Assembly: GCF_000341185.1 (NCBI RefSeq)
Contig: NZ_ANBH01000130.1
Coordinates: 1,156-65,155 of the forward strand
DNA from: Nocardiopsis chromatogenes YIM 90109
GTDB taxonomy: Bacteria; Actinomycetota; Actinomycetes; Streptosporangiales; Streptosporangiaceae
DNA length: 64,000 nucleotides
Direction: 5' to 3'
In this document: one piece after another, positions 17,846-22,598 of the stretch
How positions within the stretch are numbered: the first letter of the stretch is position 1
Layout: every line of letters begins with the position of its first letter
Notes under the pieces: model-generated
The model's input: only the letters and a program-made list of their open reading frames with translations
The model's database searches: none
Told to the model about the DNA's origin: nothing
Translations under genes and position numbers: made by a program

Positions 17846-18640
17846 TCAGGCTCCGGCCTCCGCTCCGGCCCTCGCCCACTGGCGTCGGAGCCGCTCCGCC
17901 AAGTCCGCGCGTTCGAATCCTTCCAGGATGCTCGCGAGACGATCCACCATGGCCGGCCGCTCCCACTCTTCGAGTCCGGCCAGGAACACGTCCATGGTCG
18001 AGTCCCGATCCCCGTCACCGTCGCCGTTCACGATTCCTCCCACCTGCTCGGGAGGGGTGAGCATCTCATCGAGCATCTCGCCTGCTTCGGAGATCCGGTC
18101 CAACTGATCGGGGTGCTGCTCGAACCACCAGACGCGCGCGAGTACGGAGTCGACCAGGACGTCACGCTGCAGTTCCCGGACACGCTCCATGCGCCCCCGG
18201 TGAACGGCGGCTTGGATCTCCTTCCTCGGCCCCAGGAGCTCCAGCTCCTTGGCCAGGCTCATGTCCTCCTCATCGACGGCGAGGGCCACGGTCACCATGT
18301 GTCCGCGCACCTCGGCCCGGTCGAAGGCCTCTTCGTCGAAAAGGGCGCACCTCAGTTCCGCCTCCGCCACCCCCATGTCGCCGAGGGAGAAGTCGGCCGA
18401 TCTCTCCGAAGCCGACCGAATGATCCGGCGCTGAAATTCGGCCAGCATGCGGGCACGGTCCGACGATCCTGCACCATTCCACGCGACCTCCAGCGAGAAC
18501 CGGGCCCCGAACCACAGCCCTTCGTTCCTGCTCGGCAATCGAGCTTCGAAGTCGATCTGCGAATCGGGGGCCCGGAACGCGATACTCCAAGAGGGAATGG
18601 AAGGACGCCCCCGCCTGGACCCGAATCCGAAAAATGTCAT
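17846..18640 (-). CDS. Unknown protein, last gene of the cyclase/ATPase cassette
   Basis: I do not recognise this 264-residue protein. It is soluble-looking, with no signal peptide, membrane helix or Cys motif. It begins MTFFGFGSRRGRPSIPSWSI. A beta-rich half (to about 85) contains FEARLPSRNEGLWFGARFSL, and an acidic helical half contains MSLAKELELLGPRKEIQAAV and RVWWFEQHPDQLDRI. A short acidic Gly/Asp linker lies near residue 205. It starts 53 bases after the ATPase stop on the same strand, so probable co-transcription links it to the cassette as substrate, effector or regulator (inference). Confidence 0.75.
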   Translation of the reverse strand: MTFFGFGSRRGRPSIPSWSIAFRAPDSQIDFEARLPSRNEGLWFGARFSLEVAWNGAGSSDRARMLAEFQRRIIRSASERSADFSLGDMGVAEAELRCALFDEEAFDRAEVRGHMVTVALAVDEEDMSLAKELELLGPRKEIQAAVHRGRMERVRELQRDVLVDSVLARVWWFEQHPDQLDRISEAGEMLDEMLTPPEQVGGIVNGDGDGDRDSTMDVFLAGLEEWERPAMVDRLASILEGFERADLAERLRRQWARAGAEAGA

Positions 18641-18693: not shown

Positions 18694-20835
18694 TCAGGAT
18701 TCACGGCCGCTGATCTCCTCATAGAGCCTGTCGACTTCGGCGACCCTGCGTCCGCACGCCAGCCGCCAGCGCTTGATGACCCGGAGGATCGCTTCCGCAT
18801 TGCCAGGGGAGCCATGAGCCGCCGCCCGCAGTGACTCCTTGACCGGTTCGGGCACCGGCCAGGAAGCAAACGCGTTCAGCCACATCCACAGAGTCTTCGA
18901 TGCCTGCGCGTTGTCCTCCATGAGGGCTTGCCAGCAATTCGCCACGGTGTCGGCCGAAACCCGGGACTCCGCGAGTTCGGTGAAGATCACCGGTTCCCCA
19001 TCCTCCGGTCCCTGCGCAGAGCGTGTGAGGAGGTGCGCCAGCCCTTGAACGGCGAAGTATCCGCGGTGTCCGTGCCTCGACGCGTCGGCCACCCAGGTCG
19101 TCAGCTCATCGAGCACCGACTCCACATTGCCCGGCTCATCGGCGATGCTCTCTAAGATCCCGACGAGCGATCCGGCCCACTGGTGGGGAACCTTCGCCGC
19201 GATGAGCCGCAACCGCACCATCGCGGAGCGCGGGCGCACCCGGCCGTAAACTCCGCACACTTCGGCGACCATACGGTCGAGCTGATGTGTCCTGCCACCG
19301 GCGGCCACCCGGTACAGCTCCGCCCTGACCACCCCGCCGATCTCGGCGGTGACAGCGGCTTCGGCGATGGCGGGGACCGCCGCCCACGAAAGGTCGGCGG
19401 TCCGGCCCCAGGACCTCATGAGCTCAGTGACGGGGGACGGATCCGAATGGCGGAGTCCGAGCCTGAGCCACCGGTCGGCGAGGTCCCCCCTCTCCGCCCA
19501 CGGGAGCTCTGCGGCAGCCGACTCCGACCAGGAGAGAAGGTCGGCCCTCGCGTGCGGGTGCTCACGCCAGAGATGGTCCAGGGCGCCGTCCCTGATCTCC
19601 TGACGGGTGAACCGGATCCTGTCGTCCACGACGGTCGCAGGGAAGTCCTGGAGTAACTCCGACAGGCCGCTCCCGGAGATGGGCGTGCGCCAAGCGGAGG
19701 GAACCTTCCAGCGCTGGGCGAGTTCATGTGCCTGCTTGAGGACGACGGGGCAGCGGGCGCCTTCCAGCAGCGCGACGGCCTCCAGGAGGACCCGTTGGAA
19801 CTCCTTCTCGTAGTCGTGCTCGGCGAACCACTTCCGGAGCTCCTTCGCCGGGTCGGTGAAGGAGCCGATGACGGAGTCGATCCACTGGCGGTAGCCGTCC
19901 TCTCCGCCGCCACCCGTGTCCGGTCGCCCCCGGGCGGCCATCCCCGCCAGCTGGGTGGCGCGCCCCGGGTCGGCACCTCTCAGCGCGGCGCGGACCCCTT
20001 CGTCATCACACCACCGCCGGGCATCCTCCTCGCACGTCCGATGCCGCATCGACCTGAAGAAGACCTCCAGCGGACGGGGAGGTTCTTCGATCTCCAGCCA
20101 GGCGTACGCCTCTCCGAACTCCTCGGTCCACTGCTTAGGGGTGGCGATGACGACGAGGAGCGTCTCCGCCTCACGGACCCTCCCCGCGAAGGACCGCAGA
20201 GCGGTCCGCTGGGTGGGGCCGATCTCCGGGGCATGCGTCAAGTCGATGAGATAGGTGTGCTCCTTTTCGACTTCGACTCCGGATAGACCCGCATCCCGTT
20301 CGTCCAGGTCCGGCATCTCCTCTTGAATCGGACTCCCGGGCCTGAGGGCCGCGAGCGCGTTGATGCCCGCCGTTCCCCTGCCGGTGCCCTGTTCACCGAC
20401 GATGATGCCGATACTGGAGCGGCGTAGTTCCTCCTCAAAACGCTTGTAGTCCCGGCATTCGACGAACGTTTCAACGATCGTCTCCACTTTCTGTTCGTCC
20501 ATCCGCAGGGCATTGCGGACCCGTTCAGCCGTCTCCTCTGAACGGACGTAGGTGTGGAACGCGACGCCGCCTTGGATCAGGCCCGCCTGCACCGCCTGAC
20601 CCCGGTTGGAGCCCACGCTCGACCGCGCATTCGTCCGTCGGTCGGACTGCCTTCCCCCTTCGCTGCCGCCCCCTTCCTCGGTGCCCGCATCGGGCTTCCC
20701 CGCTTGCGCCGATCCCGATGCCTCGTCCCGGGAACCCGAGTCGCCGGAAGCACTCCCGTGCGTTTCGCCCTCCACACGCGCGTCCTTGGGCGGGCGTTCC
20801 TCTCCTTGCTGTTCAGGATCTCGCCCCTCGGCCAC
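18694..20835 (-). CDS. STAND-like ATPase with N-terminal amyloid-type signalling motif
   Basis: A 713-residue protein. Residues 1-74 are a polar disordered tail. Residues 76-94 read SNRGQAVQAGLIQGGVAFH, matching a motif at the C-terminus of the cyclase encoded next door. A P-loop-like segment follows (about 143-156: SIGIIVGEQGTGRGTAG), in which the Walker A Lys is replaced by Arg-Gly, and a Walker B-like strand EHTYLIDLTHAP. The rest (about 330-700) is helical-repeat in character, as in NLR/STAND sensors that hold a ligand-binding repeat array. Start: GTG at 20835, only 2 bases after the cyclase stop codon, so translation is coupled. Inferred role: regulated scaffold or sensor that nucleates its partner. 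Confidence 0.7.
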   Translation of the reverse strand: MAEGRDPEQQGEERPPKDARVEGETHGSASGDSGSRDEASGSAQAGKPDAGTEEGGGSEGGRQSDRRTNARSSVGSNRGQAVQAGLIQGGVAFHTYVRSEETAERVRNALRMDEQKVETIVETFVECRDYKRFEEELRRSSIGIIVGEQGTGRGTAGINALAALRPGSPIQEEMPDLDERDAGLSGVEVEKEHTYLIDLTHAPEIGPTQRTALRSFAGRVREAETLLVVIATPKQWTEEFGEAYAWLEIEEPPRPLEVFFRSMRHRTCEEDARRWCDDEGVRAALRGADPGRATQLAGMAARGRPDTGGGGEDGYRQWIDSVIGSFTDPAKELRKWFAEHDYEKEFQRVLLEAVALLEGARCPVVLKQAHELAQRWKVPSAWRTPISGSGLSELLQDFPATVVDDRIRFTRQEIRDGALDHLWREHPHARADLLSWSESAAAELPWAERGDLADRWLRLGLRHSDPSPVTELMRSWGRTADLSWAAVPAIAEAAVTAEIGGVVRAELYRVAAGGRTHQLDRMVAEVCGVYGRVRPRSAMVRLRLIAAKVPHQWAGSLVGILESIADEPGNVESVLDELTTWVADASRHGHRGYFAVQGLAHLLTRSAQGPEDGEPVIFTELAESRVSADTVANCWQALMEDNAQASKTLWMWLNAFASWPVPEPVKESLRAAAHGSPGNAEAILRVIKRWRLACGRRVAEVDRLYEEISGRES

Positions 20836-20837
20836 GA

Positions 20838-21707
20838 CTACGCCCCCTTCTGGTCCCCGAACTTCAGGCCACCAGAGATCTCATCCGCCTGAACGGACAC
20901 GCCGCTATTGGTGCCGATTGCTTTGGAGGGGCGCTCCCTGCCCTCGTCCACCCATCCCGGTCCTCCCTCCACGTCTTCTGCACCAGCGCCTGTCTCAGCC
21001 CCGGTCCCCCCTACGGTTCTGGCCGGGTCGCCTGCGTCGCTGTCAGCCCGCCCGACAGATGAAGGCCTCGGCGTGTAGACGTACACCTCGGCCTGGAACT
21101 CCTTGTCGGGGATGCTTCCGTCGGCCGGTTGGAAGAGGGCCGGGTTCAAGGCGACGTATCCGCCGAGGACCGCGTCCTCGTACACGCGGCTGGACAGGCC
21201 CGCGACCAGGTAGGTCACGTCCGGGTTGCCGGCCTTGAGCGCCCTTCTCAAGGGGGCGGAGTCCAGGATGCGGTGGGTCTCGGTCATGGCGGATCCGATG
21301 CCGTCGCCGCGTTCTTCGCCGCCGCTGTCGGGGAGCGGGCCCAGGCCGATGGCGGCGCGCAGCCGCAGGCTCAGGGTGCGGTCCTCGTAGGCGAGGATCG
21401 GCTGCATATCGGCGAGGACTTCCTGGAGTTCGCCCATGAGCGGGTTGATGAGCAGGGCGAGGTGTTCCGGGTCCACACCGACCACGTATCCGTCCCCGGT
21501 GTGCTGGGGGAAGGACGCGTTCTCCCAGAGGCCGGCCAGCCCGCAGTCGCGGAACGCGGTTTCGAGCGCATCTTGGATGGAGTTGTTGAGCAGTCGCTGG
21601 TTCATGGAGGAGGTGCGCGAGAACTTCTCCGCATCGACCGCCAGGACGGCTCGGTAAGGCGGCATGGGCTTGCCGGTGCGGCGCGCGCGGCGGGGGACTT
21701 CCACCAT
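20838..21707 (-). CDS. Class III nucleotidyl-cyclase-like protein with C-terminal signalling motif
   Basis: A 289-residue protein. Residues 15-213 resemble a class III nucleotidyl cyclase catalytic domain: PPYRAVLAVDAEKFS supplies the first metal Asp (D25), FPQHTGDGYVVGVDPEHLAL the second acidic site (D72), and LRLRAAIGLGPLP the core strand. Residues 215-265 are a low-complexity linker. Residues 266-284 read TNSGVSVQADEISGGLKFG, matching the motif in the following ATPase at 9 of 19 positions. Product nucleotide is unknown; related bacterial cyclases make cAMP, cGMP or, in Pycsar defence, cyclic pyrimidines. ATG at 21707 follows GAGGAGACAGC. A Crp-type cyclic-nucleotide sensor gene lies upstream. 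Confidence 0.75.
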   Translation of the reverse strand: MVEVPRRARRTGKPMPPYRAVLAVDAEKFSRTSSMNQRLLNNSIQDALETAFRDCGLAGLWENASFPQHTGDGYVVGVDPEHLALLINPLMGELQEVLADMQPILAYEDRTLSLRLRAAIGLGPLPDSGGEERGDGIGSAMTETHRILDSAPLRRALKAGNPDVTYLVAGLSSRVYEDAVLGGYVALNPALFQPADGSIPDKEFQAEVYVYTPRPSSVGRADSDAGDPARTVGGTGAETGAGAEDVEGGPGWVDEGRERPSKAIGTNSGVSVQADEISGGLKFGDQKGA

Positions 21708-21725: not shown

Positions 21726-21762
21726 GTCGGGGGTGCGCGGCCTCCCAGCCGCGCACCCCGAC
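21726..21762 (-). terminator. Hairpin between the Crp-like gene and the cyclase gene
   Basis: GTCGGGGGTGCGCGGC pairs with GCCGCGCACCCCGAC (one bulged G, 6-base loop). On the minus strand it ends about 5 bases before the cyclase ribosome site. It could stop read-through from the Crp-like gene, attenuate, or stabilise the downstream mRNA. Confidence 0.55.
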
Positions 21763-21884: not shown

Positions 21885-22598
21885 TCAGGAGTCCCCCTGG
21901 GCGACCTCTCTCAGGCGGTCCAGGTCGCGGATCGAGACGTACTGGCGGCCTGTGCGGATGATGCCCATGGACCGGAGCCGTCCGAACTCCGCGGCCACCG
22001 AGGCGCGGGACATGCCGATCCAGTCGCCCAGCTCCTTCTGGGACAGCCCCACCCGCAACACGGCGCCGTGGCGGGCAGCCCCGTCTCCTCCGCCCTTCGC
22101 ACCGCCCGCGCCGGGGACGTGCGTCCCCAGCACGCCGGTGAGCCTGAGCAGCGTCGCCGCCAAACGCCGCCCCGAGGGCAGGGCCACGATCTCCGCGCGC
22201 TGGCTCTCCCCTTCGCTCTGCCGCTTGACCACGTGCTCCCACAGCGCCCGGTGCAAGTCCATGCGCCCGACGAGCAGCCGGAAGTGGGCACTGGTGAGGG
22301 CGCGGGTCAGGCAGCCGCCTCCCGTCGGCGTCACCGTCGCGGTCCTCGGCAGCCCCGACAGGGCGGAGAACTCGCCCAGCGCTTCCCCCGACCCCCTGAG
22401 CGCGAGCAGGGACTCGGTGCCGTCCGGTCTGACGACCGACACCTTGACCGTCCCCTCAGCGAGCATGTAGACGACGCCTTCCCGGTCGCCCTGGCGCATG
22501 ATCGGTTCACCGTCGGGGAAGACCCTCGTGGCGCCGGCCTTCAGGAAGACCGCCCACTGCTCGTCCGTCAGCAACGCGCCGAAGCCTTGTCTGCGCAC
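21885..22598 (-). CDS. Crp/Fnr-family regulator with cyclic-nucleotide-binding domain
   Basis: A 237-residue transcription factor. Residues about 15-125 form the cNMP-binding beta barrel; the phosphate-binding cassette reads GEALGEFSALSGLPRTATV, keeping the Glu (E76) and Arg-Thr (R85-T86) equivalent to the cAMP-binding residues of CRP. The C-terminal winged helix reads LSQKELGDWIGMSRASVAAE with VSIRDLDRLREV at the end. It has no FNR-type Cys cluster, so the ligand should be a cyclic nucleotide (inference). GTG at 22598 with GAAAGG about 6 bases upstream was chosen as start. Its position just upstream of a cyclase gene suggests it reads that cyclase's product. Confidence 0.88.
   Translation of the reverse strand: MRRQGFGALLTDEQWAVFLKAGATRVFPDGEPIMRQGDREGVVYMLAEGTVKVSVVRPDGTESLLALRGSGEALGEFSALSGLPRTATVTPTGGGCLTRALTSAHFRLLVGRMDLHRALWEHVVKRQSEGESQRAEIVALPSGRRLAATLLRLTGVLGTHVPGAGGAKGGGDGAARHGAVLRVGLSQKELGDWIGMSRASVAAEFGRLRSMGIIRTGRQYVSIRDLDRLREVAQGDS

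Follow-up and report, generated by a model that had tools for sequence, protein, structure and literature searches.

Matched motifs pair a class III nucleotide cyclase with an NLR-like ATPase in actinobacteria and suggest an amyloid-type route to second-messenger signalling

Introduction

Cyclic nucleotide synthesis is a feature of Pycsar, a cyclase-based anti-phage defence. Amyloid signalling in bacteria has been described for BASS pairs of Bell effectors and NLR receptors (Dyrka et al. 2020, doi 10.1016/j.jmb.2020.10.004, here as relayed in PMC7889193, PMC8086366 and PMC9815663). The Bell domain is not obligatory, as CHAT and TIR have also been named as amyloid-signalling effectors, and the outcome of the bacterial process has been called unexplored (PMC7889193). 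A further related group comprises the EAD-linked conflict systems (Kaur et al. 2020, PMC7159879; 2021, PMC8195603).

We analysed a locus in a 64,000-nucleotide stretch of the genome of the soil bacterium Nocardiopsis chromatogenes YIM 90109 (the whole stretch is referred to as the window), where a first-pass annotation had noted a likeness to BASS pairs: one motif at the C-terminus of an effector, its counterpart at the N-terminus of a receptor, and the two genes adjacent. This geometry is present at the locus (Table 1). Judging by what the relaying papers carry of the BASS description, adjacent genes, a C-terminal effector motif with an N-terminal receptor motif, and a disordered setting are common to BASS pairs and the window module.

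Table 1. Features of the locus, with positions in the window
Feature	Position	Strand	Basis
Crp/Fnr-type transcription regulator (cNMP_binding + HTH_Crp_2), GTG start assumed, first module gene	21885..22598	(-)	PF00027, PF13545
GC-rich inverted repeat in the Crp-cyclase intergenic gap	21726..21762	(-)	gap folding versus shuffles
Class III nucleotide cyclase, 289 aa, C-terminal motif	20838..21707	(-)	3mr7 profile match and fold matches
Cyclase catalytic domain, about residues 16-215	21063..21662	(-)	conserved residues, model
Cyclase C-terminal motif TNSGVSVQADEISGGLKFG, residues 266-284	20856..20912	(-)	resembles own ATPase head
NLR-like ATPase, 713 aa: disordered head, P-loop NTPase domain, alpha-solenoid	18694..20835	(-)	AlphaFold and fold matches
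ATPase N-terminal motif SNRGQAVQAGLIQGGVAFH, residues 76-94	20554..20610	(-)	match to cyclase motif, profile search
Walker A-like P-loop GEQGTGRG, residues 147-154, Lys replaced by Arg	20374..20397	(-)	homologue alignment
Third gene, 264 aa, conserved, no recognised domain	17846..18640	(-)	same-strand homologues in paired loci

Results

Identity of the cyclase and the ATPase

Searches of Pfam, NCBIfam and PADLOC gave nothing above threshold for the cyclase, the ATPase or the third protein. The cyclase profile matched the cyclase 3mr7 (E = 3.3e-6), and the AlphaFold model of the protein matched the folds of 1wc1, 4wp8, 2w01 and 7r65 (the class III cyclases CyaC, Ma1120 and Cya2, and the cUMP synthase 7r65). 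Five residues are invariant in 40 cyclase homologues, and from the 3mr7 alignment and general knowledge we take D25 and D72 to be the metal ligands, R117 the phosphate arginine, R146 the transition-state arginine and K202 the phosphate lysine. By its modelled fold and these catalytic residues, the protein is a class III nucleotide cyclase. Where a transition-state asparagine would be expected, the window protein has T142 (17 of the 40 homologues have N, the others V, I or T), and a glutamine stands at the usual base-selecting lysine position. The departures at the asparagine position do not affect the fold assignment but make activity less certain.

For the ATPase, AlphaFold predicted a disordered head of 98 residues, a P-loop domain and a long alpha-solenoid. 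The best folds returned by Foldseek were NLRP9, SAMD9 and NLRP14, then RuvB, ORC, NOD2 and, lower, Avs4, all with TM-scores that are low because of interdomain orientation; we therefore label the protein NLR-like and not NLR. Pfam gave no NACHT or NB-ARC match. In the family alignment G147, G150, G152 and R153 are invariant or nearly so, and the Walker A lysine is replaced by arginine in nearly all members, which makes NTP hydrolysis doubtful and NTP-driven oligomerisation uncertain.

A shared motif in two disordered ends

The first-pass annotation had reported 9 identities over 19 positions between cyclase residues 266-284 and ATPase residues 76-94, and both peptides were found at those residues with that identity. 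Its placement of the motifs in disordered regions also held, given the low AlphaFold confidence there (pLDDT below 50 for cyclase residues 221-229 and 250-278 and for ATPase residues 1-98). The identity count alone is not significant, because at least nine identities arose in some 19-residue window in 113 of 2,000 composition-preserving shuffles of both ends; this is the number that speaks for a chance or compositional likeness of two Gly-rich disordered ends. The gapped local score of the pair, 75, was matched in 7 of 20,000 shuffles, and the motif stretch is the top 19-mer match across both full-length proteins. When a profile was built with the window's own genome and that genome's closest relatives left out of the contributing pairs, a search of the 6.9 Mb genome placed the ATPase motif of the window at the top (E = 3e-7) and its cyclase motif in third place (E = 0.01). 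At the DNA level the motif is identical at 32 of 57 bases (56%), so that a DNA repeat, gene conversion or recent duplication was ruled out.

Co-variation of the motifs across homologues

Among 151 genomes of the same family, homologues were found in 90 for the cyclase and in 36 for the ATPase. In 37 pairs of adjacent genes, tail-to-head local scores averaged 70 for own partners versus 33 for swapped ones (permutation z = 16.5), with a shuffle p ≤ 0.002 for the match in 32 of the 37. When named genomes, scanned with a profile from ten closer cyclase sequences, were added and the set was thinned to less than 75% cyclase identity, the resulting 41 non-redundant pairs scored 67 with their own partner versus 32 swapped (z = 17.3), and tail similarity predicted head similarity after the similarity of both catalytic domains was removed (partial r = 0.28, permutation p = 0.0005). 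The own partner ranked first in only 21 of these 41 pairs because pairs within one motif type are interchangeable, which makes cross-talk possible. Exceptions were few: two of the 37 pairs (L073, L120) are clearly without a match, L099, L121 and L249 scored at chance, and L111 was marginal.

A fresh set consisted of 40 stretches from an order-wide search, minus seven seen earlier, in which each tail was compared with the first 140 residues of the next gene. Here 25 of the 26 cyclases followed by an ATPase matched (p ≤ 0.004; the exception is L249), as did none of the 13 followed by another gene at the same threshold. The swapped-partner and fresh-set tests refute chance or compositional likeness, to which we give practically no weight, and the motif pair of the cyclase and ATPase is close to certainly genuine. 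The first-pass annotation had staked its reading on homologues in which the motifs might be absent or vary independently; in fact, almost every cyclase-ATPase pair carries the motifs, and the two change in step. We consider it very probable that the pair mediates contact between the two proteins.

Across the order, 202 of 299 sampled genomes encode the cyclase family, for which there is no Pfam model, and the copy number reaches ten or more in a single genome. Many cyclase tails without an ATPase have lost the motif, their last residues forming a short V/I-x-FEA-like stretch. In two loci (L107:6037-7593 (-) and L124:6755-8596 (+)) ATPase-less cyclases with FEA-ending tails are followed by a frame of 520-610 residues with a hydrophobic stretch and Gly-rich repeats, e.g. 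GGNFTGGAMATG, which is possibly a different cyclase partner.

Joint switching of motif types

Sorted by eye, the pairs fall into about ten motif sequence types. The window pair belongs to type A (N-x-G-x-x-V-Q-A-x-x-I-x-G-G); type B reads VTIsGDGaQnafGNtVgGDl and type C GGIGSIGGxVGTAxxxxxGPVNIGGxQ, and further types include GDxIGGASHRADGxGxVNAxGRDQ, AVFxxRVGQAFTGGTFHG, VTAKGGDVAFGNQYGxxxTYN and INNxxAGVxAxGAVFG. The type is nearly always equal in the cyclase and ATPase of one pair. For example, L104 has a cyclase domain with 64% identity to that of the window protein, yet its tail and the head of its neighbour are both type C; at L112, with a cyclase domain 52% identical to the window's, both genes carry type A. 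If the two motifs made no contact, such joint switching would be hard to account for; among paralogues it amounts to a natural experiment on keeping or losing the specificity of signalling motifs.

The third gene bears on whether such contact is direct. A homologue on the same strand is found in 33 of 49 paired loci, a degree of conservation compatible with a shared third protein to which both motifs bind in place of binding one another. Most of the loci that lack the gene have motif type B or one of the rarer types, and the 16 of 49 pairs in which it was not detected, mostly of another motif type, nearly all still match. Concerted switching among some ten types is, moreover, what direct pairing would lead one to expect, and we regard a common third protein as very unlikely. 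A PDB profile search with the third gene returned only designed helical or chance matches.

The type C tails of L104, L105, L108, L109 and L110 hold two different motifs in tandem, the upstream one resembling type A and the type C motif matching the neighbouring ATPase. No second protein with a type A motif was found beside these double-motif tails. At L109, the tail of a second cyclase (L109:1109-1930 (-), VNTATGNGAVYATQHGTLHVH) matches a short frame on the opposite strand (L109:5630-5950 (+), RNEAADHGTVFAVTHGDMHVH).

The motif class on other proteins

Elsewhere in the window's own genome a second cyclase (L087) has a type A tail and no ATPase, and a 641-residue frame (L210) with a weak NB-ARC match has a motif-bearing head that closely resembles this tail (NSGPTFQFGSVHGGVRV in L210, NSGSVYQMGDVGGGVNV in L087). 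Full-length relatives of L210 occur in four of six Nocardiopsis genomes, the same four that have the orphan cyclase; with six genomes compared, this co-occurrence is only suggestive. A natural fusion was found in genome G086, where a single frame behind a Crp-like gene (L062:7430-9181 (+)) encodes a cyclase, a linker, a degenerate P-loop domain and an FHA-like domain. The same motif class also occurs at the N-terminus of AAA/NB-ARC plus TPR proteins of the genus (L209 in the window's own genome, L215, L218 and L220), and one small frame (L212) has it at its C-terminus. In two further frames (L214:5521-6534 (-) and L219:4384-5421 (-)) a type A motif precedes an apparent single transmembrane helix, followed in L214 by an NPCBM domain, so that each looks, from its sequence, like a membrane protein with a cytosolic motif.

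Amyloid character of the motifs

The first-pass annotation had singled out BASS3 for comparison. The published BASS3 peptide, VDLRDAKGVQVGDGNVQINRF, has an RHIM-like VQxGxxN core (PMC8086366, Table 2) that is absent from the window motif, and BASS3 identity was rejected.

Compared with their linkers, the motif cores are poor in proline (2.9% versus 15.7%) and in charged residues (11% versus 21%), and N/Q and beta-formers are enriched. Amyloid signalling motifs have been described in a comparable disordered, Pro-poor setting (PMC7889193), and both the composition and the setting of the window motifs fit that class. The same data might be produced by a short non-amyloid interface, homotypic or heterotypic (e.g. 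a beta-zipper), holding a stable complex with neither templating nor polymer: all pairing results show specificity rather than polymerisation, and the L062 fusion would be compatible with a plain complex. Such an interface fits less well with the N-terminal occurrence of the same motif class on unrelated NB-ARC/TPR receptors, or with Pro-poor patches rich in G, N, Q and V at the ends of disordered linkers, which is the setting reported for amyloid signalling motifs (PMC7889193). We hold the non-amyloid interface to be rather unlikely, if still the most serious competitor listed here, and an amyloid-like contact between cyclase and ATPase to be the moderately favoured reading.

The adjacent Crp-type regulator

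The Crp-type protein matched PF00027 (E = 2.2e-13) and PF13545 (E = 2.3e-14) when the frame was scanned from 22652. A Crp homologue lies upstream of the cyclase in 40 of the 47 cyclase-ATPase pairs with enough upstream sequence, and with this gene conserved the module can be read as an NLR-like sensor, a motif pair, a cyclase and a Crp regulator. The Crp gene is the predicted reader for the cyclase and probably the readout of the pathway, and the likely output accordingly shifts from killing to transcription. The 177-base gap between the Crp and cyclase genes folds with z = -2.6 relative to shuffles; the strong inverted repeat within it (Table 1) is a candidate terminator, attenuator or operator.

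Discussion

Class III cyclases form their active sites at the dimer interface and need dimerisation, and clustering would therefore turn synthesis on. In the model that we propose for the four-gene module (Crp regulator, class III cyclase, NLR-like ATPase and third gene), the helical solenoid of the ATPase would sense a signal and the ATPase would oligomerise, gathering its N-terminal motifs into a cross-beta (amyloid-like) seed. This seed would capture the matching motif that ends the disordered tail of the cyclase and bring cyclase domains together, switching on synthesis, and the cyclic nucleotide, whichever one is made, would bind the Crp-type regulator encoded by the adjacent gene and change transcription. 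As a whole, this sequence of events is at best slightly favoured.

The opposite sign of control, in which motif contact sequesters or inactivates the cyclase and release from the ATPase activates it, would produce the same gene order and the same matching motifs, since neither separates activation from inhibition. We consider such restraint unlikely, and more so than a non-amyloid interface, because the dimerisation that these cyclases need is favoured by clustering and because the receptor activates the effector in described amyloid systems. In its most general form, the activation reading describes a module widespread in actinobacteria whose NLR-like ATPase turns on a second-messenger cyclase through prion-like templating and whose readout is a transcription factor; this remains tentative, with a probability that we place a little short of even.

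If the model is true, bacterial amyloid signalling would govern gene expression and not cell death alone, and, among the several paralogues that one genome encodes, each motif type would be a private channel. Since the product of the effector enzyme is a small molecule that can be measured, and a predicted reader is encoded next to it, the paradigm could be tested by an ordinary enzyme assay and a reporter.

Comparison with known systems

Pycsar and the window module have a class III-fold cyclase in common, the cUMP synthase 7r65 being among the fold matches. They differ in that the window module has no PADLOC match for cyclase or effector and in that the neighbouring cyclic nucleotide sensor is a Crp transcription factor. 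The EAD systems resemble the window system in that an effector, which in EAD systems can be a cNMP cyclase, and a STAND-like protein carry matching modules, in their occurrence in multicellular bacteria, and in the CRP-like regulators near some EAD loci. In contrast, EADs are small folded domains, whereas the window proteins have motifs of about 20-25 residues in disordered ends, and no MoxR or vWA partner was seen in the window system.

BASS pairs, as far as the relayed description goes, also comprise many motif families found mainly in multicellular actinobacteria. On the same description, the usual BASS effector is Bell, whereas that of the window module is a class III cyclase by fold; the receptor NTPase of the window module belongs to a divergent family with no Pfam match; a Crp regulator belongs to the window locus; and the window motif differs from the published BASS3 peptide. 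Our literature search found no earlier report joining a cyclase to amyloid signalling, though the primary BASS paper may mention one. By analogy, the module may work like a BASS-type signalosome, through likeness rather than strict membership. From the sequences of its parts, it would be a case of NLR-associated amyloid-motif signalling, with amyloid formation presumed, in which a second-messenger enzyme and a transcription factor replace the usual membrane-killing effector.
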